64,000 bases of DNA from Thermococcus sp. EP1 (GTDB lineage Archaea; Methanobacteriota_B; Thermococci; Thermococcales; Thermococcaceae). The notes under the pieces were generated by a model. The model searched no databases. It saw nothing but the letters and a program-made list of their open reading frames with translations, and was not told the DNA's origin. The position numbers were made by a program, and so were the translations under genes. Positions 9,979-49,153 of the stretch are shown piece by piece (within the stretch, counting starts at the first letter, position 1; each line of letters opens with the position of its first letter). The DNA lies in the NCBI RefSeq assembly GCF_001317345.1, contig NZ_JXCG01000006.1:62001-126000 (forward strand). The letters are read 5' to 3'.

Positions 9979-10014
9979 CCTTCACTTTACCTTTTCAACA
10001 AAGAGGTGAGAAAA

Positions 10015-10185
10015 ATGGCGAAGGAAAAAACAACTCTTCCACCAACCGGTGCAGGTTTAATGAGATTTTTCGACGAAGATACAAGAGCGATAAAAATAAG
10101 CCCCAAAGGGGCCATAGCAATAGTATTGATTTTCATTGCCATTGAAATACTCCTCAACGTCTTTGGAAGCCAAATCTTTAGTTAA
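10015..10185 (+). CDS. secG: Preprotein translocase Sec61-beta subunit
   Basis: This 56-residue protein begins MAKEKTTLPPTGAGLMRFF and ends with one hydrophobic transmembrane helix (residues about 32-51). That is the exact form of the archaeal Sec61-beta (often annotated SecG) of Thermococcales, a tail-anchored partner of SecY in the protein-conducting channel. The start has the Shine-Dalgarno GAGGTGAG and a TATA box at proper distance. Its last bases overlap the stop of the convergent PRC-barrel gene by 4 nt. Confidence 0.95.
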   Translation: MAKEKTTLPPTGAGLMRFFDEDTRAIKISPKGAIAIVLIFIAIEILLNVFGSQIFS

Positions 10186-10841
10186 AGGAGTGTTTTCTTC
10201 AACCCTCTTGCATTTAATTCCTCATTCACTATCCTTCTAATAGCATCTTCAATATATCCTTTAAGGAGGGTTTCAACATCAGCCTTTATCTGATCAATAT
10301 CATGCCGTAATCCCTCTAGAAGTCTGATGTATTCCTTAGCCATTTCAAGTTGTCCCTCTTGTTTTATAAGTTGCTCCTTTAAATGTTCAAAATCTTCCTT
10401 AATCACTTGAAGCCTCTTTAATTCTCTTGTAAGTTCATCCATTTGTTTTATTAACTTAGAGTTTTCCTCTTTCAACTCTGCAATAACTCTTTCTTTATGC
10501 TCAAGTTCTTTTACTAGTGCATTATATTCCGAAGCAATATTGTGAAGTTGCTCAATCTCCCTTATGGGAGGAACTTGCCCATTTCCAAGGATTATCACAT
10601 CAGGTCCAACATTTACTATATCTGAAGGGCGGATTCTTATTTTTCTTTCGCTTGAAAACATTCCTGTCTGAACTTCACCAGTTTTAGCAAGGTTCTCTAG
10701 AGTCTTAATTTTAAATATAAAATAGAACTGGTCATGATCTACTTCAACATTAATGTCCGTTACATAACCCAGTATTTGTCCCTCGGTTAACGACACCACG
10801 AACTTATTAACAAGTTGATTTGCCTGTTGACTTTCGGCCAT
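10182..10841 (-). CDS. PRC-barrel-like plus coiled-coil protein (CdvA-like architecture)
   Basis: The protein of about 219 residues begins with a beta-rich domain (residues 10-100) of PRC-barrel type: VSLTEGQILGYVTDINVEVD, then a strand-rich region ending RIRPSDIVNVGPDVIILG. A continuous coiled coil of about 100 residues follows, from NIASEYNALVKELEHKE to the C-terminus. A PRC-barrel followed by a coiled coil is the layout of CdvA, the crenarchaeal membrane-associated cell-division protein. Euryarchaeal PRC-barrel proteins also act at the division site. The function here is inferred from architecture only. AGGTGA precedes the chosen ATG. Confidence 0.6.
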   Translation of the reverse strand: MAESQQANQLVNKFVVSLTEGQILGYVTDINVEVDHDQFYFIFKIKTLENLAKTGEVQTGMFSSERKIRIRPSDIVNVGPDVIILGNGQVPPIREIEQLHNIASEYNALVKELEHKERVIAELKEENSKLIKQMDELTRELKRLQVIKEDFEHLKEQLIKQEGQLEMAKEYIRLLEGLRHDIDQIKADVETLLKGYIEDAIRRIVNEELNARGLKKTLL

Positions 10842-13143: not shown

Positions 13144-13190
13144 AGAAACATTTTTAACCAAAAAGTGTCTGGTAGTATTAGGTGCTCCTA

Positions 13191-14030
13191 ATGGAAGTCA
13201 AAGGACTCGTTGAAATTGTAAGACCGGCTAATTGTATTATCGCAGGTTTAGTAGGCATCCTTGGCGCTACTGTGGCCTTAGGTAGTTTACCTCCTAACAA
13301 AACAAGTTTGCTGATATTCTTAGTAGTTTTCTTAGGATGTAGCTGGGGAAACACTATAAATGATTATTTTGATTATGAAATTGATAAAATTAACAGACCA
13401 AAGAGACCTCTTCCGAGAGGAGCCTTTTCCAGAAATACTGCCCTCATTTATGGTCTCTCCCTGGCACTTTCAGGCCTTTTTATAGCATATTTAATTGGTA
13501 TTGAAGCATTTCTCTTTGCATTAGGTGCATATTTATTGATGTTCCTCTATGCATGGAAACTCAAACCCCTGCCATTCATCGGGAACTTAGCCGTTGCAAC
13601 CTTAACTGGAGCAACGCCTATTTACGGCGCAATCGCCGTTGAGAAAATAGGGTTAGCAGGTTATCTTGCTCTTTGTGCATTCTTGGTAAACGTTGCCAGA
13701 GAAATTTTCAAAGATGTCGAAGACATAGAAGGTGATAAAATCCAAGGTGCAAAGACCCTCCCTATTATTTGGGGAGTTAAGAGGGCTTCCATGATTGGAG
13801 TTTTATTCAACATAACTACCATTATGGCGTCGTTCCTTCCTGTAAGGGTGGGAATAGGTCTTGGATACTTCCCTATAATCTTTGTGGATGGAATAATTTT
13901 ATGGGCAAGTTACGAAGTTTTAAAAAGCCCCTCTCCTACAACTGCCGGGAAGGTTCAAAGAAAGCTGAAAATTGCCATATATTTGGCAGTGCTTAGCTTT
14001 TTACTAGGATCAATAACAAGGGAGGTGTAG
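13191..14030 (+). CDS. Digeranylgeranylglyceryl phosphate synthase (UbiA family)
   Basis: The membrane prenyltransferase of about 279 residues has eight or nine hydrophobic helices. NDYFDYEIDKINRPKRPLP is the first Asp-rich, Mg-diphosphate-binding motif and DVEDIEGDKIQGAKTLP the second. In archaea this enzyme attaches the second geranylgeranyl chain to GGGP, the second ether bond of membrane lipids. The GGGP synthase for the preceding step is encoded at 33026. The ATG preceded by AGGTG is chosen over a GTG three codons upstream. The next gene starts 4 nt later and is probably cotranscribed. Confidence 0.92.
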   Translation: MEVKGLVEIVRPANCIIAGLVGILGATVALGSLPPNKTSLLIFLVVFLGCSWGNTINDYFDYEIDKINRPKRPLPRGAFSRNTALIYGLSLALSGLFIAYLIGIEAFLFALGAYLLMFLYAWKLKPLPFIGNLAVATLTGATPIYGAIAVEKIGLAGYLALCAFLVNVAREIFKDVEDIEGDKIQGAKTLPIIWGVKRASMIGVLFNITTIMASFLPVRVGIGLGYFPIIFVDGIILWASYEVLKSPSPTTAGKVQRKLKIAIYLAVLSFLLGSITREV

Positions 14031-19406: not shown

Positions 19407-20369
19407 TCATTCCCTTGAAGAGTTTCTACTAGGCAATCTCCTCATGTAGAACCTTTTTCCTTCATACTCAAGTTCAATGAGCTTTCCCGTATTCAAAAGC
19501 TTTTCAACGATCCCCCAATCAACATTTGCTTTCTTTAAAAGTTCCTTCACGCCATCTTCTCTCATCGGATGAACACTTGTAATGCTCAATAAGTCCTCCT
19601 CAATGTTTCCCGTAAAAGTGAAAGCATTTCCTTCGTAGCCAATTAAATATTCAACCCTATCAACGACTTTTGCAAAAGTTTGAAATGCCTGGTTAATAAT
19701 TTCTTCTTTTGGTGGTTTAACCCATTTTTCCGTTGGTGGTCTAGTAGGAATTGAGATATATGCTACATCAGGCTTTAGCTCTTTCAAAAACTCTGCTATC
19801 CTCTCAAACTCATCTCTATAATTTACTCTATCAATTAGCATAGTCTCTGTTACAAGTTTACCTTTGAACTCTTTTCTAAACTCTATCATACCCTCCAAAA
19901 TTGTATTAAGCCTCAGACTTTTATGAGGCCTATCTATTTTTCGCCATAACTCCTCACTAACAGCATCAACTTTTAAAGAGACAAAATTAAACCTCAACAG
20001 CTCTTCTCTAACATCATCACGCCATATCAAAGAAGAGTTCGTTAAAATTGCAAGAGGAATTTCAAGTTCCGTTAAAAGCTCAGCCTCCTTTCCAAGGTTT
20101 ACATCTAATGTTGGCTCTCCATCAGGAACAAAAGTAATATAATCAATTTTCTCATTTCTTGCCTTCACTTCTTCAACTTTTTTCTTAACGTCTTCAAAGA
20201 TAACTTCTGGACCATAAAACTCCTTTCTTTTAATTTCCATCTTTAGGGTCTTCCCAACTTGGCAGTAAACACAAGCATAAGAACAAAACTTGTCGGGAAT
20301 GTTGTTTACCCCAAGACTTCTCCCAAGTCTGCGAGAAGGAACAGGACCAAAGGCAATTAAGGTTCTCAT
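19407..20369 (-). CDS. Radical SAM protein
   Basis: The protein of about 320 residues belongs to the radical SAM superfamily. The cluster motif is CSYACVYC (CxxxCxxC) near residue 34, followed by QVGKT. FVPDGEPTLDVN is the SAM-binding GGEP-like segment (here DGEPT). The N-terminus FGPVPSRRLGRSLGVN is characteristic of a widespread uncharacterised subfamily (COG0731-related), sometimes linked to tRNA wybutosine synthesis or protein modification. The ATG with GGTGAT upstream is used. It stands alone; function is not known. Confidence 0.85.
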   Translation of the reverse strand: MRTLIAFGPVPSRRLGRSLGVNNIPDKFCSYACVYCQVGKTLKMEIKRKEFYGPEVIFEDVKKKVEEVKARNEKIDYITFVPDGEPTLDVNLGKEAELLTELEIPLAILTNSSLIWRDDVREELLRFNFVSLKVDAVSEELWRKIDRPHKSLRLNTILEGMIEFRKEFKGKLVTETMLIDRVNYRDEFERIAEFLKELKPDVAYISIPTRPPTEKWVKPPKEEIINQAFQTFAKVVDRVEYLIGYEGNAFTFTGNIEEDLLSITSVHPMREDGVKELLKKANVDWGIVEKLLNTGKLIELEYEGKRFYMRRLPSRNSSRE

Positions 20370-20522
20370 AATGATCACCAAAATTAGGTTAATCTAATCC
20401 TCTTTAAGGTTTTTGTATTACCACTCTGGCTGACCATAGCCTTGGTAAAGGACATAAACCGCGTAACAACTAACTTTTTTCTTCTCCTAAAGACTAAGAC
20501 CCTCAGATAGGTAAGAGTTATT

Positions 20523-21332
20523 TTAAAGCTCTATCACTTTTCCAACATATAGGGGCTCAAAGTTTTTTCCAAAAGTGTACATAAATGATGCCATTGCTTC
20601 AAAACCCGTGCAATGACCTGCATAAAGTTTTTGAACGCCCAATTCTTTTAGACCTCTTATTGCCTCCCTCCGCAATCTCTCGTTAGAGCCCATCAGATGG
20701 AAACCTCCTATTAGGGCCTTAACAGGTTTATTCAACGAACTTTGAGCGACTATATTTAAGATCCCACTGTGACCACAACCCGTTATTACAATGACACTCT
20801 CTCCATCTTCTACAACTAGTGCTATATCATCCCTAACAGGATCTTTGATAAGCCCATTATCTTTCACAATATATCCAACTCTTCTATCCCAAGTTACTCT
20901 CTTGATCTCTCCGCTAGTCCAAACTCCATCAAAAATCTTTAATGGCTTTTTATCAAGAATAAAGTTTGCTCCAAGCTTTTCCAATTCTTCTTGGAGATAT
21001 GGAATCCCTATATCCCTTCGCTTGGGCTTTAGTGCTATTCGCTGTAGAAAGATCTCAGGGTGAGCATAAATATCTATAGCACTTCTCCTAGCTCTAAGAA
21101 ACTCCTTCAACCCTCCAGTGTGATCGTAATGACCGTGAGTTAAAACGACTGCATCGATTTTTTCTGGATCTATTTCCAAGGCTTCCATGTTATGGAGAAG
21201 AATTTTCCCTTCCGTTCCAACATCCACTAAAATTCTCCTCCCATCGTATTCAATAAAAAGAGAAAATCCATGGTATCCTAAGAGGCCCTTTTTAAACCCT
21301 GCATGATTCTCAAAAAGTACTGTAATTCTCAT
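20523..21332 (-). CDS. Metallo-beta-lactamase-fold hydrolase (COG1237-like)
   Basis: The protein of about 269 residues has the MBL metal-binding motif THGHYDHTGG, an aspartate in the N-terminal strand (DVGTEG), and later histidines in GCGHSGI and GGFHLMG. The layout resembles the COG1237 subgroup, some of which are annotated as acting in the folate-like (methanopterin) pathway on dihydropterin and ribofuranosyl-aminobenzene phosphate. Relatives of that pathway lie at 47232 and 49273. The first gene after the degenerate ATPase-like gene, 11 nt away, it may be cotranscribed with it. Confidence 0.8.
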   Translation of the reverse strand: MRITVLFENHAGFKKGLLGYHGFSLFIEYDGRRILVDVGTEGKILLHNMEALEIDPEKIDAVVLTHGHYDHTGGLKEFLRARRSAIDIYAHPEIFLQRIALKPKRRDIGIPYLQEELEKLGANFILDKKPLKIFDGVWTSGEIKRVTWDRRVGYIVKDNGLIKDPVRDDIALVVEDGESVIVITGCGHSGILNIVAQSSLNKPVKALIGGFHLMGSNERLRREAIRGLKELGVQKLYAGHCTGFEAMASFMYTFGKNFEPLYVGKVIEL

Positions 21333-21343
21333 CTTTGACTCCC

Positions 21344-22246
21344 TCAAATCAACAGTTTACCAAACTCAACTTCTAAGGTCTGTGTCGTTCTCCATACGAA
21401 AGCTCCTTCTCCTTTGAGAACATGCTTTCTCATGGCTCCTTGTGGGACCCCATTTGCTTCATAAATCATGCTCTGCAGATCAGGATCATTGTAAAGGACA
21501 AGTGTCGGACCCGGAACATTAAGAAGGTTCTCTGCTACATATCTAGACGCTAAAAGAGTAACTCTTCCCCTCATGGGCTGGGTCAATAAAGGAATAGCAG
21601 CACTTCCTGGAGTAGTATAGAAAAGAACTGCAGCATCATCAATACCTATTAAGGTATTCCTTCTATCTTTCACTGCTGCTGCAAGAATTAAGAACGCCAT
21701 TCCTACAAGAGTTATGCTGTAAGCGTTGCCAAAGTCTATGAGAACACTTTTTCCAAGCTCTGGAGGTTTGCCCTTAAAGAAAACCTCATCAAGAGTAGTA
21801 TAAGTTTCTCGTATCACTTCACTATACTTCTCTTTAGACACTGCAGCCTCTGGAACACTTTTTATTTTTCCTGTTAGTATATCAGAGTAAAGTTTATTCG
21901 TAAGGGAACGATCTAACCCATAAATTGTTTGGATTATAGTTGCCGCTGTGTAAAAGTTCTTTAAAATACCTTCCTTTGCCATTTTTATTGGATCCAGACC
22001 AGTTGGTTTATTGTCCTCTATTTTTACTATTGTATCAAACTTCTCCTTTGAGTATTTTCCTCTCGTATCAAAGAAAACCAATCCATATTCCTTCTCTAGA
22101 AACCTATCCCCAATGTACTCAATCACTTTGGTTGGATCATCGTCGATCCCAAAAATTTTCAAGCTCCTTCCGTGGTAAACAGGATCATAGTATATTTCTT
22201 TCTCTTCATACTCTAAAATTTTTACAGCTAATTTGCTATATTTCAT
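21344..22246 (-). CDS. Uncharacterised protein, possible degenerate P-loop fold
   Basis: The protein of about 300 residues starts MKYSKLAVKILEYEEKE, using the ATG preceded by GGTGA; the longer frame upstream would run into the NifX-like gene. SVLIDFGNAYSITLVGMAFLIL and NTLIGIDDAAVLFYTTP look like Walker B-type strands of HerA/FtsK-like ATPases. However, no Walker A (GxxxxGKT/S) is visible. It could be an inactive ATPase-like subunit or an unrelated fold. It is directly upstream of the MBL-fold gene. Confidence in it being a gene is high; function is unknown. Confidence 0.6.
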   Translation of the reverse strand: MKYSKLAVKILEYEEKEIYYDPVYHGRSLKIFGIDDDPTKVIEYIGDRFLEKEYGLVFFDTRGKYSKEKFDTIVKIEDNKPTGLDPIKMAKEGILKNFYTAATIIQTIYGLDRSLTNKLYSDILTGKIKSVPEAAVSKEKYSEVIRETYTTLDEVFFKGKPPELGKSVLIDFGNAYSITLVGMAFLILAAAVKDRRNTLIGIDDAAVLFYTTPGSAAIPLLTQPMRGRVTLLASRYVAENLLNVPGPTLVLYNDPDLQSMIYEANGVPQGAMRKHVLKGEGAFVWRTTQTLEVEFGKLLI

Positions 22247-22319
22247 GAGGTTCACCAAACAATTATTAGGTAAATGAAGTATAAACGGATTTCTCTTAAG
22301 TAGAAGATAAAAAGAAAAG

Positions 22320-22772
22320 TCACCAACCACCTTTGCCTTGTCCCCTTCTGTGTCCCATTCCTTGACCTCTTCCACGGCCCATCGTTCGGCTGCTGCCTCT
22401 TCCAGGACCCATCCCCCCTTCAGGGCCTAGAATTGCTTGAGTCAATTCACCACGTAAAAATGCCCTCACAGCTTCTTCTACAGTCATGGTTGGAGGAGCT
22501 GAAACAAACCTTATGCCTGATGCTTGAAGTATTTGGGAAGAGTTGGGTCCAAACTGACCAGCTATGACAACATTTGCACTTTCATTTATACAAAATTGAG
22601 CCGCCTGAACACCAGCTCCTCTTGAAGCACTTGCACCAGGATTAGGAGCTACTTTAGTATTTTTTATTTGCCCTTCTTCAATATCCACTATTGTGAACAT
22701 TGGAGCTCTCCCAAAAGCTTGGTTAACAAAATCATTCAATCCACCTTTCGCAGTTGCTACCACTATTTTCAT
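22320..22772 (-). CDS. NifX/NifB-family (FeMo-cofactor-binding-like) protein with Arg/Gly-rich tail
   Basis: The protein of about 150 residues contains a dinitrogenase iron-molybdenum cofactor-binding domain (IPR003731 type): KIVVATAKGGLNDFVNQAFG, FTIVDIEEG, and the late NVVIAGQFGPNSSQIL. A C-terminal tail of about 30 residues is rich in Gly and Arg (MGPGRGSSRTMGRGRG). The domain binds metal clusters; no nitrogenase genes are present, so a general iron-sulfur or metallocofactor role is likely. The ATG with GGTGAT is the start. Linked with the adjacent small membrane protein and second NifX-like gene. Confidence 0.88.
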   Translation of the reverse strand: MKIVVATAKGGLNDFVNQAFGRAPMFTIVDIEEGQIKNTKVAPNPGASASRGAGVQAAQFCINESANVVIAGQFGPNSSQILQASGIRFVSAPPTMTVEEAVRAFLRGELTQAILGPEGGMGPGRGSSRTMGRGRGQGMGHRRGQGKGGW

Positions 22773-22805
22773 GATTATCACCCCAAAGAATTAGGGAGAC
22801 CGAAT

Positions 22806-23039
22806 TTAAAAAAGTTTGCATAAGCTCAAAAAACCTCCACCCCTATTTGGCCTCAGAAAACCTCTGATAATGAGAAGCACTATGAAGCCCAAGGTATACG
22901 GAAGGGCCACAAAAAGTAGCTTTATGAAAAAGTAAATAATTCCAATCAGCAAAAGCATGTCAATCAAATAATAAGGTTCTCTCAGGCGATAGTTAAAGAA
23001 ACTTTGTCTTCTATAGCCCCTCCCCATTCCTCGTGGCAT
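22806..23039 (-). CDS. Small membrane protein, 77 aa, Arg/Gly-rich ends
   Basis: The protein begins MPRGMGRGYRRQSFF, has two hydrophobic segments (YLIDMLLLIGIIYFFIKLL and ALPYTLGFIVLLII) and ends RPNRGGGF plus a short tail. The N-terminal MPRGMGRG is the same as the DUF134 regulator at 28146 and resembles the tails of both NifX-like proteins. GGAGGATTAAAA precedes the ATG. It sits between the two NifX-like genes and probably belongs to the same system. No known family recognised. Confidence 0.6.
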   Translation of the reverse strand: MPRGMGRGYRRQSFFNYRLREPYYLIDMLLLIGIIYFFIKLLFVALPYTLGFIVLLIIRGFLRPNRGGGFLSLCKLF

Positions 23040-23070
23040 TTTTAATCCTCCAAAAATTAAAGAGAAAAGT

Positions 23071-23670
23071 TCACCACCAGCCAAAATATCTAGCTATCCA
23101 GTTTCTTCTATTTGGCATTCCAGTCCATGGACAGTATCCTAATCTTGCTCCCCAGCCACGTCCTCCTCTACCCCAACCTCTACCAAATCCTCCTCCTATA
23201 CCTCTACCAAATCCTCTACCCCAACCAAAGCCGTACGCTGGATACGGTGGAACAGGAGGATAATACTGTGGGTTCTGGGAGGACACTTGAACAGGAGGAT
23301 AAGATGGAGCTCGTGGAAATTCTGATGGTGGCGAAGGAGTTTCTCCCTTTATAATTCTGTCAACAGCTTCCTTTATTGATGTTCCTGCCGGAAAGGTGTA
23401 GTATTTGATCCCAGCTGCTTGAATGGCACCCATGGCATTTGGCCCTATTTGTGATGCTATTATTGTATCAACCCCTTCGTTTATAAGTGCCTGTACAGCT
23501 ATTGGACCAGCCCCTCCTCCTGCGTATGCAGCTTGATTTTGGAGTACTTTGACATTCTTTATCTCCCCATTCTCCACATCAACTATTGTAAACACTGGTG
23601 CCCGCGCAAATACTGGAGCTATGGTATCTTCCAATCCTCCATTTGTCGAACTTGATATTCCAATCCTCAT
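23071..23670 (-). CDS. NifX/NifB-family protein with Pro- and Gly/Arg-rich tail
   Basis: The protein of about 199 residues has an N-terminal cofactor-binding-like domain (FTIVDVENGEI, LINEGVDTIIASQIGPN) and then a Pro/Ser/Tyr-rich segment. A run of Gly, Arg, Phe and Trp with repeated GRG and GWG follows, and the end is GYCPWTGMPNRRNWIA. Only the first 110 residues are needed for the family, so the tail is a large addition. Several ATGs occur at the start; the one with GGTGATGAGG upstream is chosen. It has its own promoter with a GTGCATATGCAC palindrome. Confidence 0.85.
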   Translation of the reverse strand: MRIGISSSTNGGLEDTIAPVFARAPVFTIVDVENGEIKNVKVLQNQAAYAGGGAGPIAVQALINEGVDTIIASQIGPNAMGAIQAAGIKYYTFPAGTSIKEAVDRIIKGETPSPPSEFPRAPSYPPVQVSSQNPQYYPPVPPYPAYGFGWGRGFGRGIGGGFGRGWGRGGRGWGARLGYCPWTGMPNRRNWIARYFGWW

Positions 23671-23697
23671 CCTCATCACCACCCATATTTCTGTTAT

Positions 23698-23727
23698 GTG
23701 CATATGCACAAAATCTTAAAAACTTTT
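23698..23727 (-). promoter_or_regulatory. Promoter and palindromic operator of the NifX-tail gene
   Basis: GTGCATATGCAC (23698-23709) is a perfect 12-bp palindrome. On the minus strand it follows the TATA-like AAGTTTTTAAG (around 23716-23727), that is, between TATA box and expected start. The block is repeated at 24031, before the broken NifX-like gene and the divergent MinD-type gene. Confidence 0.5.
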
Positions 23728-23765
23728 CGATTAACTTAACATTTAGCCGGAACATCAGTTTTCTG

Positions 23766-24012
23766 CTACTTTTCTTCAAATTCATTCCAGATTTCGTCAA
23801 ACTTCCTCCCACAATATGCTTGAGCACAATGTTTAAACCTCTCGGCTGAGCGAAGAACACAATTTAACGCTCCGTTTGATCTCTTTTCCACTAATTCAAA
23901 ACTTGCATCACCCCCTGATTTCGTATATCGAGAAAAATTTTGAATCCCCATAGTGAGTATCTGCCAAAGTTTCATAATCTTTCATACCAAATGCAACTCT
24001 AAGCTTTCTCAT
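23766..24012 (-). pseudogene. Third NifX-family gene, frameshifted
   Basis: The first frame reads MRKLRVAFGMKDYETLADTH then YGDSKFFSIYEIRG and a stop. The continuation FELVEKRSNG, then AERFKHC and a short C-terminus, lies in the next frame, with the shift in a run of five G (AGGGGGTGAT). Removing one G gives one 81-residue frame; intact family members are over 100 residues, so the end is also short. A promoter and palindrome similar to the neighbouring gene lie upstream. Confidence 0.65.
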
Positions 24013-24030
24013 TTCCAGATCATCATGATA

Positions 24031-24056
24031 GCATATGCACAAAATTTTTAAAGTTT
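24031..24056. promoter_or_regulatory. Second copy of the palindromic promoter element
   Basis: GCATATGC followed by ACAAAATTTTTAAAGTTTT repeats the block at 23698. On the minus strand it serves the broken NifX-like gene with the same TATA-then-palindrome order. On the plus strand ATTTTTAAAG is placed about 35 nt before the MinD-type gene, with the palindrome upstream, so one site may control both directions. Confidence 0.45.
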
Positions 24057-24085
24057 TAGGCCTCCCTAACTCTGGAGGTGAACAC

Positions 24086-24946
24086 ATGCAAATAGCAGTG
24101 AGTGGGGGTAAAGGAGGAACAGGAAAATCGACAGTTGCAATTAACCTAGCAATAGCCCTAAAGGAATATTTCGACCTTGCATTAGCTGATTTAGATGTTG
24201 AAGCACCAAATGACCACATACTCCTTAATGTTGAGCTTCAAAATGAAGAACCTGTCAACATGTTTATGCCTCGTTTTGACTATTCAAAGTGCATCAAATG
24301 TAGAAAGTGTGCTGAGATTTGTGAAGAAAATGCAATAATCACTATGAAGGATGGAACCCCCTTCTTGATACCAACTTTATGTTCTGGTTGTAGAGGATGT
24401 GAGATAGTATGCCCGGTTCCGGAGGCAATATTGGAGAGACAGAAAACCATGGGGCACACATACCTAACAAACACTGTCTATGGATTTCCCCTCATAACAG
24501 GCAAACTCTTGGAAGGAGAAGAGAGAGCTATGCCAATTGTAGTTGCAGCAAAAGAGAGAGCACAAAAGCTCGAGAAAAAGCTTTTACTAGTAGATACTGC
24601 TGCAGGTACAAGTAACACCGTTTCCAAAGCTTTAGAAAATTCAAAACTGTTAATTGCAGTTACAGAACCAACTCCATTGGGTCTGCATGATCTCGAACTC
24701 ATACTAAAGCTTGCAGAGCTTATGGGTATTGAGACTTGGATAGTCCTCAATCGAAGCAGCCTTGGTAATAGGGAAGGAGTTCAAAAAGTGGCAAAAGAAT
24801 ACAAAGTAGAGATAGTCGCAGAAATTCCATATAGCGAGAATATAATCCGCAGCTATATTGAGGGGAAGCCTATAGTGTTAAGCGAGAATAAAGAGGCAGA
24901 GGTCTTCAAAGAACTTGCCAAAAAAGTTGCAGAATACGTGGGGTGA
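24086..24946 (+). CDS. MinD-superfamily ATPase with inserted ferredoxin domain
   Basis: The protein of about 286 residues is a deviant Walker A ATPase (SGGKGGTGKST at residues 7-17) interrupted by two 4Fe-4S motifs (CIKCRKCAEIC and CSGCRGCEIVCP at about residues 72-116). It belongs to COG1149, which co-occurs with NifX-like proteins. It is probably an iron-sulfur carrier or assembly ATPase related to Mrp/NBP35. GGAGGTG precedes the ATG. Its end abuts the paralogue, which it probably binds. Confidence 0.9.
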   Translation: MQIAVSGGKGGTGKSTVAINLAIALKEYFDLALADLDVEAPNDHILLNVELQNEEPVNMFMPRFDYSKCIKCRKCAEICEENAIITMKDGTPFLIPTLCSGCRGCEIVCPVPEAILERQKTMGHTYLTNTVYGFPLITGKLLEGEERAMPIVVAAKERAQKLEKKLLLVDTAAGTSNTVSKALENSKLLIAVTEPTPLGLHDLELILKLAELMGIETWIVLNRSSLGNREGVQKVAKEYKVEIVAEIPYSENIIRSYIEGKPIVLSENKEAEVFKELAKKVAEYVG

Positions 24947-24951
24947 GAAGG

Positions 24952-25839
24952 ATGCAGATCGCGATAGCAAGCGGAAAAGGTGGAGTTGGAAAGTCAAGTG
25001 TTACTGCTTCACTAGTTTACCTTCTTAAAGACACTTATAAGCTAATAGCGATTGATGCTGATGCTGATGCGCCTAATCTGGACTTACTCTTTAATGTGGA
25101 GAAATGGGAAGAGGAAAAAGAACTCATAGGAGCAAAAGTTGCCAAAATAAACACAGAAACATGCATACAATGTGGTATATGTGCTGAGAGATGTCCTTAT
25201 GATTGTATAAACTTCATTGATGGAGATTACATAGTGAATGAATTAACATGTGAAGGTTGTGGTGTTTGCAGGCTTGTGTGTCCAGTGAAAGGAGTAATCA
25301 CTTTAGAAGAAGTTCGGTCTGGCATAATTAGAAAGACAACGACAAAATACAACTTTCCCTTAATCTCAGCACAGCTTGATGTGGGTAGACCAAATAGTGG
25401 AAAGCTTGTTACTGAAGAGAAAGAATGGGCCAAGAAAATTATGAAAGAACAAAATCTAGAACACATGATAGTGGACTCAGCAGCAGGGATTGGATGTCAA
25501 GTAATAGCAAGTCTTGGAGGCGCAGATGCAGTAATACTTATTGCGGAGCCAACTCCTGCTTCATTGAGTGATGTAAAGAGAGTTTACAAAGTTGTTCAGC
25601 ACTTTAGAGAACCAGCTTACCTAATAATCAATAAAGCAGACCTAAATCCAGGGTTTAGAAGATTACATGAGTTTGCTGAGGAAGAAGATATACCTATAAT
25701 CGGCGAGATACCGTATGACAAAGCAGTTCCAAAAAGTATGACAATGCTTCAACCAGTTATTGAAGCATTTCCAGAGTCTAAAGCATCTAAAGCTCTTAAA
25801 GAAATTGCAAAGATAGTAGAAGAAGAGATTTTAAGATAG
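24952..25839 (+). CDS. MinD-superfamily ATPase with inserted ferredoxin domain, paralogue
   Basis: The protein of about 295 residues has the P-loop SGKGGVGKSS, DADADAPNLDLLF as switch region, and two ferredoxin motifs, CIQCGICAERCPYDC and CEGCGVCRLVCP. It is clearly paralogous to the preceding gene, and the pair probably forms a heterodimer. The ATG is preceded by GGTGAGAAGG that overlaps the previous stop, so translation is coupled. Function as for its neighbour: handling of iron-sulfur clusters, inferred from family. Confidence 0.9.
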   Translation: MQIAIASGKGGVGKSSVTASLVYLLKDTYKLIAIDADADAPNLDLLFNVEKWEEEKELIGAKVAKINTETCIQCGICAERCPYDCINFIDGDYIVNELTCEGCGVCRLVCPVKGVITLEEVRSGIIRKTTTKYNFPLISAQLDVGRPNSGKLVTEEKEWAKKIMKEQNLEHMIVDSAAGIGCQVIASLGGADAVILIAEPTPASLSDVKRVYKVVQHFREPAYLIINKADLNPGFRRLHEFAEEEDIPIIGEIPYDKAVPKSMTMLQPVIEAFPESKASKALKEIAKIVEEEILR

Positions 25840-25897
25840 TACTTTCTATTTCTCCCACTCACTAATTTTTAAATAATATTATTGTGAGTGTATAACT

Positions 25898-26695
25898 ATG
25901 AGTCCGCACCGCCCAGATAATTTAAGGAGCAAAAAAATAGAAAGCGTGGTGATGTTTTATTTGCTTGTCTATCTAATTGTCTACGGTTCAACGCTTGTTA
26001 TAAAATACTATTTAAAAAATTCTTACATCCTTTTAGATCTTACAGCGACGATTGGGATTACATTTATAGGAATATTTTTAGTTGCTATTCTTGTACTAAA
26101 ATTGAATAATGAAAAATTACTCCCCTCCCTTTTTGGAATTAGAAGAGATAATTTACGCAATAGCTTTCTATTGGCTGCAGCTCTTTCAACGCCCATCCCG
26201 TTGTTTTGGCTCATTGGTATGCAAATTGTAGGTATTGATACATTATTAGTTGCTGCTAAACCGTCCTGGGCAAATTTTCCAATTTCGTTAGGAATTTTAA
26301 TATTCGCAGTCCTATTCTGGGGTTTAATTGGCACTGTTGCCTTCGCTTTTTGGCAAGCTTTTCCCTATGAACTCATGCGAGACATTTCTCCTAGATTTGC
26401 AGTACTTTGGATAGCTATTTTATGGTCTGGACTATATAATACACCACTACTAACCGGAAAACTTGATCCCGTTGATATTCTTTTCTTTGGGTTCCTATTT
26501 ACATGGGTCTATCACAAAACAAGAAACAGTGTAGGGATTGTGCTAGCGTATCTCTTGAATGAAAATCCCTTGTGGTGGATAATAGCAGCAATATTTGGGG
26601 CAAATATCAGAATAGCATTCATGGTTTTTCTTATTTTTAGAGTGCTAGTGTGTTTAGTTTCAGTTGTGTTGTTAGTAAGAAGAAACTATTTATAA
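25898..26695 (+). CDS. Polytopic membrane protein, degenerate CPBP-like
   Basis: The 265-residue protein has seven or eight hydrophobic helices. The segment FAFWQAFPYELM, then FFGFLFTWVYHKTRNSVGIV, resembles motifs 1 and 3 of CPBP (Abi/CAAX-like) intramembrane proteases. However, the catalytic EExxxR and the His residues of active members are absent. It is thus either inactive or a different fold. No Shine-Dalgarno is present; a TATA-like TTTTTAAATAATAT lies about 25 nt before the ATG, suggesting a leaderless message. Confidence 0.5.
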   Translation: MSPHRPDNLRSKKIESVVMFYLLVYLIVYGSTLVIKYYLKNSYILLDLTATIGITFIGIFLVAILVLKLNNEKLLPSLFGIRRDNLRNSFLLAAALSTPIPLFWLIGMQIVGIDTLLVAAKPSWANFPISLGILIFAVLFWGLIGTVAFAFWQAFPYELMRDISPRFAVLWIAILWSGLYNTPLLTGKLDPVDILFFGFLFTWVYHKTRNSVGIVLAYLLNENPLWWIIAAIFGANIRIAFMVFLIFRVLVCLVSVVLLVRRNYL

Positions 26696-26718
26696 AATAT
26701 TTCTCAAATCTTTTTAGA

Positions 26719-27819
26719 ATGGCGAAGTGTGAATTATGTGGGTACGAGTCTGAAGAAATTAGTGAAGCAATTGGGGTATGTGTTAACTGCCTTAGGAAAA
26801 ACCCTCAAAAAGCTTTAGAAAAAGTTATGAAGTCTCATTTCAGATGGCGGAAGCTAATAAACTTGCCTTCCCTTCCTCCTCAAAACGGAGAAATTTCCTG
26901 TAAAATCTGTGTTAATGAATGTCAAATTCTAGAAGGAAATCCTGGCTATTGTGGGATAATCTGGAACAGAAAAGGAAAATTGGTGCCAATAACTGGAAGT
27001 TTTGACTATGGATACCTCCACTGGTATCTTGATCCTCATCCCACAAACTGTGTTGCACAACCTGTGTGTCCTGAGGCAAAACACAGAGGATTCTGTAACT
27101 TAGCAGTCTTTTTCGCCGGCTGTAACTTAGATTGCCTCTTTTGCCAAAACATAGAACACAAATACATGATAAAAAATGGAAATATCGATCCTTTAGCGGG
27201 AATTATCATAAGCTCAGAAGAACTTGCTAATGTTGCTATGAAAAGAGAGGTCTCTTGTGTATGTTACTTTGGTGGAGATCCCACACCACACGCACCTTAT
27301 GCAATTAAAACCTCAAGAGAAATCCTCAAACGAGCAAAAAATATCGAATCAACAAAAAGGATTTGCTGGGAAACAAATGGTCTCGAAAACCCAAATATTA
27401 TGAAAGAAATGGCCAAATTAAGCATTGAAAGCGGAGGAATAATAAAAATTGATTGGAAAGCATACACACCCCAAGTTTATGAGGCCTTAACAGGCATAAA
27501 CGGAGAAAAAGCCCTTCAAAGAATAAAGGAAAACATAAAACTTATTTCTTCAATGAAAACAAGAAACGAACCCCCACTGTTAGTCGTGAGCACTCTTGTA
27601 GTTCCTCATTACATTGACGGGGAGGAGGTCAGAAAAATAGCAACATATCTTGCAAAACTGGATCCAGAGATTCCTTACGTTCTTCTCGGTTTTGCTCCTC
27701 AGCACTTAATGCATGATGTTCTACCTACAAGCAAAAAACAAATGGAAGAGGTCTATCATGCAGCTAAAGAGGAAGGTATAAAAGAAGTTTACATAGAGAA
27801 TTACTGGCTCTTAAGGTGA
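26719..27819 (+). CDS. Radical SAM protein with N-terminal zinc-finger-like Cys motifs
   Basis: The protein of about 366 residues starts with CELCGYESEE and CVNC, then CKICVNEC and YCGI, before the radical SAM core. The cluster motif is AGCNLDCLFCQN and the SAM-binding motif YFGGDPTPH. The family resembles PflA-type activases (COG1180/COG1313), which install glycyl radicals or modify proteins. A TATA box TTTATAAAAT lies about 25 nt before the ATG, inside the end of the preceding gene, so the message is probably leaderless. The 3' end overlaps the convergent DUF134 gene. Confidence 0.85.
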   Translation: MAKCELCGYESEEISEAIGVCVNCLRKNPQKALEKVMKSHFRWRKLINLPSLPPQNGEISCKICVNECQILEGNPGYCGIIWNRKGKLVPITGSFDYGYLHWYLDPHPTNCVAQPVCPEAKHRGFCNLAVFFAGCNLDCLFCQNIEHKYMIKNGNIDPLAGIIISSEELANVAMKREVSCVCYFGGDPTPHAPYAIKTSREILKRAKNIESTKRICWETNGLENPNIMKEMAKLSIESGGIIKIDWKAYTPQVYEALTGINGEKALQRIKENIKLISSMKTRNEPPLLVVSTLVVPHYIDGEEVRKIATYLAKLDPEIPYVLLGFAPQHLMHDVLPTSKKQMEEVYHAAKEEGIKEVYIENYWLLR

Positions 27820-28146
27820 TTCCTCCTTTGGAATTTCATTTCCTTGGGCAAGAATTATCAACTCCCTCCCTTCAACAAGCATTTGAGCAACTTTTTTTCT
27901 CGCTGATGTTAATGCTCTCCACACTGTTCCTCTCGAAACACCTATTCTTTGGCCAGCCTCCTCCTGCGTTAACCCTTCATAATCAACTAATCTCAATACC
28001 TCAAACTCCTCATATGTCATGAAGATTGGAGGTTGAGGAGGGCCAAACGGAGGCTTAGCCGGATAAAAGTGTCTAACCTCAGGAATAAAACCTATAAAAC
28101 GCATTTTCCTTCTCCGACCCCTACCTCTTCCCATTCCTCGGGGCAC
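27811..28146 (-). CDS. DUF134-family DNA-binding regulator
   Basis: The protein of about 111 residues begins MPRGMGRGRGRRRK and has a sigma-70 region 4-like helix-turn-helix (YEGLTQEEAGQRIGVSRGTV). PIFMTYEEFEVLRLVD is the family core. DUF134 genes usually lie beside NifX-like genes, as here. The start is a GTG that follows AGGTGA; it gives the family N-terminus, while an upstream start would add an unrelated extension. It is the likely regulator for the palindromic operators near 23698 and 24031. Confidence 0.8.
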   Translation of the reverse strand: MPRGMGRGRGRRRKMRFIGFIPEVRHFYPAKPPFGPPQPPIFMTYEEFEVLRLVDYEGLTQEEAGQRIGVSRGTVWRALTSARKKVAQMLVEGRELIILAQGNEIPKEESP

Positions 28147-28327
28147 TTCTTCTCTCACCTGAATCCATTTGGAAGTTTCCCTTTTTAGAGTTTCGGTAAG
28201 AAGGAACAACTCCCACTTTCATTATCTTTTAGTACTTCCCATCTTTGATTCTCACAAAATTCCCGCGTTAACTCTCCTATGTCTCCTACTAGTTTCAAGA
28301 GAGGAGAGAACAATTTCCAAGCGGCGC

Positions 28328-28336
28328 TTTTATAAA
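28328..28336 (+). promoter_or_regulatory. TATA box of hef (leaderless)
   Basis: TTTTATAAA ends 25 nt before the hef ATG, and there is no Shine-Dalgarno. The transcript should start at or next to the ATG, that is, a leaderless message. Confidence 0.6.
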
Positions 28337-28360
28337 CCTCTTTGTCTATAATATACATCA

Positions 28361-30673
28361 ATGTATTTGCGAAAAGACCTTATACAGCCAAGGCTTTATC
28401 AAGAGGTAATCTACGCAAAGTGTAAAGACAAAAATAGCCTAGTTGTTCTACCAACAGGGTTAGGAAAGACTCTAATAGCTCAAATGATAGCAGACTACCG
28501 CCTCTCCAAATATGGAGGAAAAGTCCTAATGCTAGCTCCCACAAAGCCTTTAGCCCTCCAACATAGGGAAAGTTTCCTGAGACTCTTTAACATCCCAGAA
28601 GAAAAAGTAAACACTTTAACGGGAGAGATTCCTCCCGAAAAAAGAGCAGAGATATGGAGAAAGAGTATTATAATTACAGCTACTCCTCAAACTATAGAGA
28701 ATGATCTTGTTGTTGGTAGAATAAGCCTCGAAGATGTGGTTTTGCTTATCTTTGACGAGGCCCATAGAGCTGTTGGAAACTACGGATATGTATATATCGC
28801 AAAAGAATACATGAGAGAATCAAAGCATCCTCTCATTCTAGGCTTAACGGCCTCTCCTGGAAGCGACGAGACAAAAATAAGAGCTATTGTGAAAAATCTA
28901 TTCATAGAACATATTGAACTCAGAACAGAAAATTCTTCTGACGTAAAGCCCTATGTACAGGGGATAAAGTTCGAATGGCTCAAAGTCGAACTTCCCGAGA
29001 TTTATAAAGACGTTAGAAAGTTTTTGCGTGAAATGCTCAAAGATTCTCTAAAACCTCTTGCTGGAGCAGGGTTACTCGATAGTTATTCCCCCGACATACC
29101 AAAGAAAGAAGTCCTAAAGGCAGGTCGAATAATAAACACCGAAATGGCAAAAGGTAATTACGAAGTAGGAAAACTTATGCTATACCAAGCTAAAGCTCTA
29201 AAGCTTCATCACGCGATAGAATTGCTTGAGACCCAAGGACTATCCGCATTAAGGGGATACTTAAAAAAGCTCTATGAAGAAGCGAGGAAGGGCAGAACAA
29301 AATCTACAAAAGAGATTATCCAAGACCCAAGAATGAAAAAAGCAATAGCTCTTCTTGTACAGGCTAAGGAGCTTGGACTTGATCACCCAAAACTCGATAA
29401 GTTGAAGGAAATTATAAAAGAACAACTAGACAAGAAACCATCCTCAAAAATAATTGTCTTTACAAATTACCGTGACACTGCAAAGAAAATAGTGGAAGAG
29501 CTCCTAAAAGAACCTATTCAAGCTATGCGCTTTGTTGGACAAGCCAGCAGAGAAAATGACAAAGGTCTAAGTCAGAAAAAACAAAAACAGATTTTAGATC
29601 TCTTTTCTAAGGGAGAGTTCAACGTTTTAGTTGCCACCAGTGTCGGAGAGGAAGGCCTAGACGTGCCAGAAGTAGATCTAGTGATTTTTTATGAGCCTGT
29701 ACCCTCTGCCATTCGAAGTATTCAAAGGAAGGGAAGAACTGGACGCCATAAACCCGGTAAAGTAATTATTTTAATGGCAAAAGGGACAAGAGATGAGGCC
29801 TATTACTGGAGTTCCCGTCATAAGGAAAAACAGATGATTTCTCTTTTAAAGAAGGTGGAAGATATGGTTAAAAAAGAGAAACAATCCTCTCTTCTTGGAT
29901 TTGTGAAGTCAAAAGAGAAGAAAAAAAGTGAAACGACCATAAAAGAGGTAGAAGAAAAAATCGAAGTCTCAAAAGAGGAAGTCTATGAAAAACTTCCCAT
30001 AAAACCTATTTTCATACGAAAACCAAAGGGTATTGTAGTGTATGTTGACTCTCGTGAGCTTAAAAGTCAAGTCCCTAAAATGTTAAAGGAACTCGGGGTG
30101 CACTTGGAAATCAAAACACTTGACATCGGAGATTACATAGTTAGTGAAGATGTTGCCATAGAAAGAAAAGCTGCTAATGACTTTATTCAGTCGATAATAG
30201 ATGGACGGCTCTTTGACCAAGCAAGACGCTTGAAAGAGGCATATCTAAAACCCATAATTATCATCGAAGGCGAGCTTTACGGAATTAGAAATATTCACCC
30301 AAATGCCATTAGAGGTGCTCTAGCAGCTCTAACCGTAGACTGGGATATTCCCATACTATTTGCCAAAGACCCAAATGAGGTGGCAAACTACATATACTTA
30401 ATAGCAAAACGCGAACAAGAAGAAAGAAAAAAGGAGATTGCAGTCAGAAGCGAGAAAAAAGCGTTAACTCTGGCAGATCGACAACGCCTAATAGTAGAAG
30501 GTCTCCCTTATGTGTCTGCAGTTCTTGCAAGAAGACTTTTACGGCATTTCGGAAGTGTAGAGCGAGTTTTCACTGCAAAAGAGAGTGAACTTACCCAAGT
30601 AGAGGGAATAGGTGAAAAAATAGCTAGAGAAATAAGAAAAGTCATCACTGCTCCTTATGAAGAGGAAAAATAG
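28361..30673 (+). CDS. hef: Hef helicase/nuclease (XPF/FANCM homologue)
   Basis: The 770-residue protein joins a superfamily 2 helicase to an XPF-type nuclease. Helicase motifs are PTGLGKT (motif I), FDEAHRAVG (motif II, DEAH), LTASPG and QRKGRTGR (motif VI). The nuclease part contains VDSRELKSQVPKML and GDYIVSEDVAIERK, with the ERKxxxD catalytic signature. A C-terminal helix-hairpin-helix pair follows (PYVSAVLARRLLRHFGS, VEGIGEKIAREIR). Hef processes stalled replication forks in Thermococcales. Full length for the family. Confidence 0.97.
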   Translation: MYLRKDLIQPRLYQEVIYAKCKDKNSLVVLPTGLGKTLIAQMIADYRLSKYGGKVLMLAPTKPLALQHRESFLRLFNIPEEKVNTLTGEIPPEKRAEIWRKSIIITATPQTIENDLVVGRISLEDVVLLIFDEAHRAVGNYGYVYIAKEYMRESKHPLILGLTASPGSDETKIRAIVKNLFIEHIELRTENSSDVKPYVQGIKFEWLKVELPEIYKDVRKFLREMLKDSLKPLAGAGLLDSYSPDIPKKEVLKAGRIINTEMAKGNYEVGKLMLYQAKALKLHHAIELLETQGLSALRGYLKKLYEEARKGRTKSTKEIIQDPRMKKAIALLVQAKELGLDHPKLDKLKEIIKEQLDKKPSSKIIVFTNYRDTAKKIVEELLKEPIQAMRFVGQASRENDKGLSQKKQKQILDLFSKGEFNVLVATSVGEEGLDVPEVDLVIFYEPVPSAIRSIQRKGRTGRHKPGKVIILMAKGTRDEAYYWSSRHKEKQMISLLKKVEDMVKKEKQSSLLGFVKSKEKKKSETTIKEVEEKIEVSKEEVYEKLPIKPIFIRKPKGIVVYVDSRELKSQVPKMLKELGVHLEIKTLDIGDYIVSEDVAIERKAANDFIQSIIDGRLFDQARRLKEAYLKPIIIIEGELYGIRNIHPNAIRGALAALTVDWDIPILFAKDPNEVANYIYLIAKREQEERKKEIAVRSEKKALTLADRQRLIVEGLPYVSAVLARRLLRHFGSVERVFTAKESELTQVEGIGEKIAREIRKVITAPYEEEK

Positions 30674-30691
30674 AGAAAAATTAAAATATAA

Positions 30692-30707
30692 GGTTACATA
30701 TATAACC
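30692..30707 (+). promoter_or_regulatory. Inverted repeat overlapping TATA box of DUF257 gene
   Basis: GGTTACATATATAACC holds the inverted pair GGTTA/TAACC around CATATA, which is the likely TATA box of the next gene about 38 nt downstream. A repressor binding here would exclude TBP. Confidence 0.35.
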
Positions 30708-30737
30708 GCCTAGCTATAGTTATTGGGGGATTTTTAC

Positions 30738-31346
30738 ATGTCAACCATTAGCACATTGTTGGAAAATCTAAAGTTTGGAGAGAGCATATTGATAGAACAC
30801 TCATCAACCGCTCCAGTGCATATCCTCTTTTATGAACTTATAAAGTGGGCGGAGCTAAATTCATATCCCGTTCTCATTGATGATTTCTTGGATTCTCTCT
30901 ACTTGTATGAAAAACATATAAAACTCTCTGGTCTTTTAACCAAGCCAATAAAGGCAGCAATGGTAATAAAATTAGGCGGTATTTTAGAGGTAGGAAATGT
31001 CATAGGAAAGGTTTCAGTTAGTGAGAGTACTATTTTACAAAAAGAATATGACTCTGTTTTTGAAAAAGTGCCGCATGAGAGATTCCTAAATATTGTAGTA
31101 GGGTTTGACAAATATTTACTCTTACTCCAAGACAAAAAAGAATTTTTAAGTTCTCTTCATGATATCTTGAAATATGTTGGAAATAAAAGGAGAATAGCAT
31201 TTTATTTCATAAATCAAGACCTAATAGAGGTTGCTGCTCCTGCAGCACTTCCAATTCTAGAAGAGGGATTCACAAGAGTAGTGAGAATAGGAAGAAATGA
31301 AAGTGCTCCTCCAACAGTCAAGCTATTAAAAACCCTAATGGACTGA
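30738..31346 (+). CDS. DUF257 family protein
   Basis: The protein of about 202 residues matches the DUF257 family, found in Pyrococcus and Thermococcus. ESILIEHSSTAPVHILFYEL and YPVLIDDFLDSLYLYEKH are the characteristic N-terminal segments; the fold resembles a RecA/KaiC-like sheet without a P-loop. Function is unknown. The ATG has GGGGGA upstream. A TTG five codons upstream would include that site. An H/ACA RNA gene on the opposite strand begins just beyond its stop. Confidence 0.85.
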   Translation: MSTISTLLENLKFGESILIEHSSTAPVHILFYELIKWAELNSYPVLIDDFLDSLYLYEKHIKLSGLLTKPIKAAMVIKLGGILEVGNVIGKVSVSESTILQKEYDSVFEKVPHERFLNIVVGFDKYLLLLQDKKEFLSSLHDILKYVGNKRRIAFYFINQDLIEVAAPAALPILEEGFTRVVRIGRNESAPPTVKLLKTLMD

Positions 31347-48250: not shown

Positions 48251-49153
48251 TTACCAAACTTTAAACTTTCTGTTTTTACATACTATCGGGCTTAACTGAA
48301 CCAATAAAACACCACAAAAAACTATTATCATCCCTATAACCTTGTGTATAGTCAGGGTTTCTCCTAAAAAAGCATATGCTAGCAGGGTTATTTGTATTAG
48401 CATTGTATTCTGAAGTATTGATTGTTCATAAGCCTTGAGGTATTTTAAAGCATGATTCCAAAGCACAAATGCAAATGCAGTGTTTACAATACTCAGAATC
48501 AGTATTATGCCCCATGTTTTCAGTGAAGGCATTGTGATGTATCCACTTGAAGCTGTAACCCCAAGGAGCATTAATGCACCCACTCCCATAGAGATCGCAG
48601 TTAAGGAGATTACACTTTCGTGATTTTCCCTGAGATAATGCCGCATGAGAATCATATACACAGCCCATCCAATTCCAGAGACAAGAGTTATGAGGATACC
48701 AATTCTTTCATTGAAAACTAGGACACTTTCGGTGAAAAATATTTTAACTCCAAGAATCACAAGAGTTATTCCAACTATTTGAATGACAGAGGGGGTTTCT
48801 TTGAGAAATAGAACACTCAATATAGCAACAAAGATAGGAGTTAAGTTAAGAATGAACGTCACTGTAATTGCAGGCAGATAATACAACCCAACAAATTGTA
48901 ATCCTTGGGCAATAAAATAGCCTGTAAACCCTAAAGTAAAAAACCATAAGAATCGCTTTGACGTGATGGGGAGCATGGAAATATTAGGCGAGCAAAGTAC
49001 AAAAAGCAGTAGAATAGACGACCCTAATAAGTACCTATAAGCGGCAAAAGCTAGTGGATTAATATCCTTTAAACCAATTTTAATGAGAACATACGAGGTA
49101 GACCACAAAAAAGTCACCAATAGGGCTTCAGCTAGCGAGTAGATCCTTTTCAT
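48251..49153 (-). CDS. EamA/DMT-family transporter
   Basis: The 300-residue protein has ten predicted transmembrane helices in two EamA-type repeats. PFAYRYLLGSSILL-like and PSVIQIVGITLVILGV segments are typical of drug/metabolite transporters. Substrate is unknown. It lies between two pterin-related genes and could export or import a related compound, but that is position only. No Shine-Dalgarno is seen. Confidence 0.82.
   Translation of the reverse strand: MKRIYSLAEALLVTFLWSTSYVLIKIGLKDINPLAFAAYRYLLGSSILLLFVLCSPNISMLPITSKRFLWFFTLGFTGYFIAQGLQFVGLYYLPAITVTFILNLTPIFVAILSVLFLKETPSVIQIVGITLVILGVKIFFTESVLVFNERIGILITLVSGIGWAVYMILMRHYLRENHESVISLTAISMGVGALMLLGVTASSGYITMPSLKTWGIILILSIVNTAFAFVLWNHALKYLKAYEQSILQNTMLIQITLLAYAFLGETLTIHKVIGMIIVFCGVLLVQLSPIVCKNRKFKVW

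Follow-up and report, generated by a model that had tools for sequence, protein, structure and literature searches.

A cluster of genes at positions 22,320 to 28,146 of a 64,000-nucleotide stretch of the Thermococcus sp. EP1 genome (contig NZ_JXCG01000006.1, positions 62,001 to 126,000; 'the window' below means this whole stretch) probably forms an iron-sulfide storage module of the IssA type, under the control of two operators that flank the TATA box, with a DUF134 protein of the same cluster as the candidate binder of one of them, here called box B. IssA is the only biological store of thioferrate to have been described: the protein of Pyrococcus furiosus forms thioferrate nanoparticles and reconstitutes ferredoxin (PMC5524996). 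We found no paper that identifies the regulator through which issA responds to iron and sulfide, or the proteins by which the store is filled and emptied, nor do the papers found on P. furiosus IssA treat the paralogue, the membrane protein, the ATPases and DUF134 as a single regulated set. For these questions the locus gives something concrete to work on: the positions of both operators are known, the candidate regulator has bacterial relatives fused to NifX, and a complex known from elsewhere offers a precedent for the ATPase pair. The IssA part of this picture is already known; new are the view of the genes as a module and the reading of its promoters as a two-operator system for which DUF134 is the candidate regulator, neither of which was found in the literature searched, which covered few subscription journals.

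An IssA orthologue within a conserved gene set

By its sequence, the central protein of the locus is an orthologue of P. furiosus IssA, also known as SipA (PF2025). Its relatives align over their full length, tail included, in 88 of 94 Thermococcaceae genomes, mostly at 50-97% identity, and in a tree of NifX domains it falls within an 11-row clade of thermococcal IssA (support 99/99). The second NifX-like protein, NifX2, lies outside this group in a clade of its own, and the placement of the third NifX protein (nifX3, below) with the NifX domains fused to DUF134 is weak (82/65) and has long branches. PF02579 matches both NifX-like proteins (E 1e-19 and 4e-21; 3.7e-21 for IssA), whose nearest structures are NifX folds of the MTH1175 type. 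As in P. furiosus, the NifX-like domain is followed by a Pro-rich linker and a cationic, Gly- and aromatic-rich tail with a single Cys and the Trp/Gly/Arg pattern described in PMC5524996; the P. furiosus protein has 179 residues, and the tail in the window is longer. The conserved Gly/Arg/Trp tail of IssA has already been proposed to bind the thioferrate polymer (PMC5524996). Because the main protein is IssA, the cofactor handled by the module is most likely iron sulfide or thioferrate. Some Thermococcus-type genomes also hold an IssA paralogue in which a Cys-rich end, HKDCIHYKDGKCEFWNLTVHADDPACPFF, takes the place of the tail (stretches L036, at about 10001-10357, L121 and L070).

An earlier note, made from this DNA alone, had described two NifX-like proteins, a two-span membrane protein and a DUF134 regulator with Gly/Arg-rich (RG-rich) ends, accompanied by two MinD-type ATPases with ferredoxin inserts, and all of these open reading frames and domain matches were confirmed. 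ParA/CbiA and Fer4 domains match both ATPases, which sit between the genes for the NifX-like and membrane proteins and that for DUF134; the last of these, with a GTG start codon in the window, matches PF02001 (E 2e-24, 86.6 bits against a cut-off of 27), and its helix-turn-helix (HTH) domain matches Sigma70_r4 (37.8 bits; cut-off 24.1). Profile comparison gave no family match for the two-span membrane protein. The note had further proposed a metallocofactor module without nitrogenase genes, a proposal upheld by the conservation of both the gene set and the composition of the tails; no nitrogenase gene occurs among the reading frames of window positions 19500-31000.

Relatives were compared as sampled genome stretches, and neighbourhoods were counted in 58 stretches of at most 19 kb centred on IssA. 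NifX2 lies near IssA in 51 of these, DUF134 in 40, the MinD pair in 36 and the membrane protein in at least 27, with NifX2, both ATPases and DUF134 together in 33. When unlinked cases are included, matches to DUF134 were found in 85 of 94 genomes and to MinD2 in 94 of 94, the best MinD2 match being weak in a few incomplete drafts. Most of the set predicted to co-occur with RG-rich tails is thus conserved across the Thermococcaceae, rather than the tails varying freely in an unconserved neighbourhood.

Expression that responds to sulfur or sulfide is known from relatives rather than from this genome (PMC5524996, PMC6981617, PMC4463584). Four genes of Palaeococcus pacificus are induced by S0, namely PAP_06520 (log2 6.23), PAP_06515 (4.29), PAP_06425 (3.74) and PAP_06430 (3.41) (PMC6981617); by gene order in a putative P. 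pacificus genome (G002) they correspond to IssA, NifX2, MinD1 and MinD2, the order there (MinD1, MinD2, some 15-16 genes, NifX2, IssA) being consistent with the PAP tags. Similarly, SipA and the 'ATPase' SipB of T. onnurineus were detected only on sulfur (PMC4463584).

Two operators flank the TATA box

Box B is a perfect palindrome of 14 nucleotides, TGTGCATATGCACA, whose exact form occurs twice in the 1.82 Mb genome: before issA, and before a third nifX gene, the neighbour of one that is fmdE-like. Between one and three box B sites are carried by 85 of the 94 family genomes, with a reversed-pattern control yielding zero. The core GCATATGC is present in all 59 issA promoters, and a match of 11/14 or better in all 37 mind1 promoters. 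By hand count, 38 of 75 listed sites stand at issA. Of 21 sites inspected away from it, 18 precede mind1 (2, in putative Pyrococcus genomes where it is unlinked from issA), nifX3/fmdE (8) or a CDF transporter gene (8); the other three lie about 100 bp from an mrp gene, at an SBF transporter gene and at a short unresolved frame. On the strength of such sites, mrp genes are probably targets too. The CDF cation-efflux gene preceded by box B is closest to MamB/MamM/FieF models (L135, L137, L139-L142, L144), which suggests that iron efflux belongs to the same regulon. The third NifX gene (L120, 8154-8639; C7:51246-51515 in the genome of the window) encodes a His-rich end and diverges from the fmdE-like gene, with the exact box B in its promoter, and is followed by iron-type ABC transporter genes. 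Downstream of the MinD pair in L132 (2828-2900), an exact box B is followed by a short, early-terminating frame, MPRGWGRGRRWFGRG, perhaps what is left of an RG protein after decay or a frame shift. Another GCATATGC core (aaaaaaGCATATGCtagcag) is found at window position 48372. Box B can be read as coding in some frames (MHMH or MCICT), a reading that was rejected because stops follow in many orthologues.

Across the TATA box from box B lies a second element, box A (TTAGG-N4-CC(T/G)AA), the order being A-TATA-B at issA and B-TATA-A at mind1 and nifX2 (Table 1). It was found in 48 of 59 issA, 36 of 37 mind1 and 57 of 61 nifX2 promoters; the site at issA, degenerate in the window, has the consensus form TTAGG-N4-CCGAA in most relatives. 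Iron operators of the DtxR/IdeR family have a consensus of the TTAGGTTAGCCTAACCTAA type. Box A fits a DtxR-type iron box, since copies of its perfect form, TTAGG-N4-CCTAA, also stand before feoA and before the genes for a ZnuA-like protein, a metal ABC ATPase and a peroxiredoxin. The genome holds 10 perfect box A palindromes; a looser pattern, TTAGGNNNNCCNAA, does not outnumber its reversed control, and the palindromic subset TTAGGNNNNCCTAA (10 sites) alone stands out. In palindrome and in position upstream of feoA and metal ABC genes, box A is the same as DtxR/IdeR operators; unlike these in general, it stands here beside the TATA box along with a second palindrome. A perfect DtxR-type box, TTAGGTGCTCCTAA, also lies at window positions 13178-13191, where a UbiA-like prenyltransferase gene begins.

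Two operators would allow the behaviour reported for P. furiosus sipA, which responds to sulfide only when iron is sufficient (cited in PMC5524996). By analogy with P. furiosus TrmBL1, which represses from a site after the TATA box and activates from one before it (PMC4706686), the sign of control by box B may differ between promoters, because box B follows TATA at issA and precedes it at mind1 and nifX2.

Table 1. Genes and promoter elements of the locus, in window coordinates
Feature	Position	Strand	Remarks
NifX2, second NifX-like protein	22320..22772	-	Met/Gly/Arg tail with terminal Trp; clade apart from IssA
Box A variant TTAGGGAGACCGAA	22791..22804	.	nifX2 promoter
Small two-span membrane protein	22806..23039	-	N-terminus MPRGMGRG; no family match
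Degenerate box B (TGAGCTTATGCAAA, minus strand)	22815..22828	.	nifX2 promoter
IssA/SipA orthologue	23071..23663	-	NifX-like (PF02579) domain, Pro-rich linker, Gly/Arg/Trp tail ending ARLGYCPWTGMPNRRNWIARYFGWW; orthologues in 88/94 family genomes; PMC5524996
Box B, perfect palindrome TGTGCATATGCACA	23697..23710	.	issA promoter, downstream of TATA
Degenerate box A (TTAAGTTAATCGAA, minus strand)	23726..23739	.	issA promoter
Box B variant ATAGCATATGCACA	24028..24041	.	mind1-mind2 promoter, upstream of TATA
Box A, DtxR-like palindrome TTAGGCCTCCCTAA	24056..24069	.	mind1 promoter
MinD1, MinD-type ATPase with ferredoxin insert	24086..24946	+	
MinD2, MinD-type ATPase with ferredoxin insert	24952..25839	+	found in 94/94 genomes searched
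DUF134 (PF02001) HTH protein, candidate regulator	27811..28146	-	N-terminal RG arm

DUF134 as the candidate regulator of box B

On sequence grounds, it is the promoter palindrome that ties the regulator most strongly to the gene set. Bacterial plasmids provide nine DUF134 loci, from four phyla, and in every one an RCA(T/A)(T/A)TGY core lies upstream of the gene; the sequence RCATATGY itself was counted 10 times within the 1,530 bp that precede DUF134, compared with twice in 45,227 bp elsewhere, where one of the two copies precedes an mrp gene. Mainly because bacterial DUF134 genes have these sites just upstream, we infer that DUF134 binds box B; a NifX domain would sense iron-sulfide. Four proteins, from Roseburia, Selenomonas, Treponema and Pusillibacter, fuse DUF134 to PF02579, and other bacterial DUF134 genes are cotranscribed with NifX. 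Palindromes with at least 6 of 7 pairs were found upstream of 13 of 29 DUF134 genes and of 4 of 69 control genes, rows within a lineage not being independent. Desulfobacteraceae DUF134 genes have palindromes of the TGAGTATATACTCA type, and two families of Thermococci (f2 and f5) have TGAATATATATTCA; DHVE2 stretches share AAATCGCATTTGTGT and are too closely related for this to be judged. The box B core GCATATGC is absent, or not upstream, at the NifX loci of Deltaproteobacteria, WOR-3 and DHVE2. The DUF134 family (PF02001; NCBIfam PRK04217), characterised by a single HTH domain resembling sigma-70 region 4, has no assigned function and is linked here to an operator and to NifX genes. No close relative of the protein was found among PDB structures.

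An unlikely though serious alternative is that the same IssA module is controlled at box B by another regulator, such as the DUF2250 HTH protein or one of ArsR/MarR type, and that DUF134 controls something else. Several observations weigh against our assignment, and the first three speak for this alternative. Firstly, the promoter of DUF134 itself lacks box B in the Thermococcaceae, and there is therefore no autoregulation there to tie the protein to the site. Secondly, box B persists in several drafts without a detected DUF134 (e.g. G068, 99% complete and 6% contaminated). Thirdly, 20 of 60 stretches have a DUF2250 HTH gene, itself a candidate, in the vicinity of the locus. Beyond these, bacterial operators have only the core in common with the thermococcal 14-mer, and the genes for IssA and MinD do not lie together in Pyrococcus. 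Against the alternative, the same RCATATGY core stands directly upstream of bacterial DUF134 genes, where DUF2250, conserved in archaea according to Pfam, cannot act, and bacterial DUF134 is either joined to NifX in one protein or cotranscribed with it.

Wider still is the proposal, on which we find the case evenly balanced, that DUF134 proteins are a widespread and so far undescribed class of iron-sulfide-responsive transcription regulators in archaea and bacteria. Their HTH domain would act on RCATATGY-centred palindromes whilst a fused or adjacent NifX-like domain sensed inorganic Fe-S species, and in Thermococcales they would form the sulfide/iron switch of issA together with a DtxR-type regulator. 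If true, the family would gain a function as metal-sulfide-sensing regulators in both domains, including on conjugative plasmids of Enterobacterales beside a Dps gene. Enterobacterial plasmids from Klebsiella (L186) and Proteus (L185) carry a DUF134-NifX pair beside a PaaI-type thioesterase gene, with two GCATATGC-core sites upstream; the Klebsiella plasmid also has a Dps gene beside the pair.

A model of the module and its precedent

The module could work as follows. During sulfur reduction with plentiful iron, IssA and its RG-tailed paralogue would take up ferric sulfide (thioferrate) at their NifX-like domains, the cationic Gly/Arg/aromatic tails holding what had been taken up. The pair of MinD-ferredoxin ATPases would dock on the NifX-domain proteins and draw on ATP and electrons when loading or releasing Fe-S units, by analogy with Orp3 and Orp4 binding Orp8, whilst the small membrane protein may tether the particles. 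Expression would be set by the DtxR-type iron box A and palindrome B on either side of the TATA box, with DUF134 bound to B and a partner or fused NifX-like domain sensing the iron-sulfide state.

The precedent for the ATPase pair is the orange protein (ORP) complex of Desulfovibrio vulgaris (Orp3, Orp4, Orp5, Orp8, MrpORP), in which Orp3 and Orp4, of MinD-ferredoxin type, co-purify with the NifX-like Orp8 (PMC6345978). Both systems have two MinD-type ATPases with two 4Fe-4S motifs apiece, a NifX-like protein and an associated Mrp-type ATPase, and a Peptoclostridium operon runs DUF134, nifX, ATPase, ATPase, mrpORP; the pair in the window resembles Orp3/Orp4 rather than being a proven member of that system. 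Neither MrpORP nor Orp5 was found among the reading frames of window positions 19500-31000, and the NifX proteins of the window match the NifX part alone of MrpORP, far below the cut-off. The D. vulgaris system has sigma54 regulation, a Mo-Cu cluster on Orp8 and no RG-tailed storage protein, whereas the locus has DtxR-like and palindromic boxes and IssA instead. That the genes should encode an ORP-like complex for Mo/Cu or another metal in cell division, as the Desulfovibrio complex would favour, is very unlikely given the thioferrate-type tail of the IssA orthologue, the induction of the genes by S0 together with iron transport, the presence of an iron-type operator and the lack of a sigma54 system in archaea.

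RG-rich termini

RG-rich ends are rare in this genome. Among 483 sampled genes (those of the window and of L120, with some 335 kb from other contigs), DUF134 was the sole N-terminal match and NifX2 the sole C-terminal match; all four ends described in the earlier note are Gly/Arg-rich, but that of the membrane protein falls below the thresholds used. The NifX tails, taken there to be of low complexity, are indeed rich in Gly and Arg, but that of IssA ends in a conserved block with one Cys, ARLGYCPWTG..RR....WW (exact ARLGYCPWTG in 43 of 56). The Met/Gly/Arg tail of NifX2 is kept in 49 of 54 orthologues and lost in a few, such as that of the putative Palaeococcus genome, where it is interrupted by a stop. 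Elsewhere in the family the type of tail switches: RG tails are spread over several distinct NifX clades, other clades having coiled-coil tails instead, and in WOR-3 bacteria and DHVE2 archaea (L046, L055, L042, L061-L064) coiled-coil-tailed NifX-domain proteins are paired with RG-tailed ones.

The octamer MPRGMGRG is, as had been noticed, identical in DUF134 and the membrane protein here, and PRGMGRG is confined to these two among the sampled genes. The octamer itself is not conserved, only the RG-rich character: it occurs in 3 of 41 DUF134 proteins and 19 of 28 membrane proteins, other DUF134 orthologues beginning MPMGMGPGWGRGRGRRRK, MPWGMGRGRGRGRRRK and similar. Apart from the window, only its two nearest relatives have it in both proteins, so that the match is best read as a lineage coincidence, and a common sorting or partner tag was rejected as stated.

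The earlier suggestion that the shared ends point to one common partner found no support. It would have the RG-rich ends bind nucleic acid, membrane or each other in a condensate that includes the regulator, and the confinement of such termini to this gene set in the sampled proteome and their conserved composition speak in its favour; we nevertheless hold it to be highly improbable, given that DUF134 and the membrane protein do not keep the exact octamer in common across relatives, that DUF134 is often unlinked from the set or at its edge, and that RG tails are scattered over separate NifX clades with coiled coils in their place elsewhere. The NifX tails fit the thioferrate-binding model. The arm of DUF134 is more simply seen as one that would contact the DNA minor groove than as a sign of a partner shared with IssA, because it directly precedes a basic RRRK and the HTH.

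Neighbouring features

Between issA and mind1, 23766-24219 (minus strand) is a broken remnant of a fourth NifX-domain gene (135 amino acids, without an RG tail), which was seen in 44 of 92 loci examined and is full-length in most relatives. A radical SAM protein near the AmmeMemoRadiSam model, though below its cut-off, is encoded at 26719-27819 (plus strand), and its gene adjoins DUF134 in several genomes.

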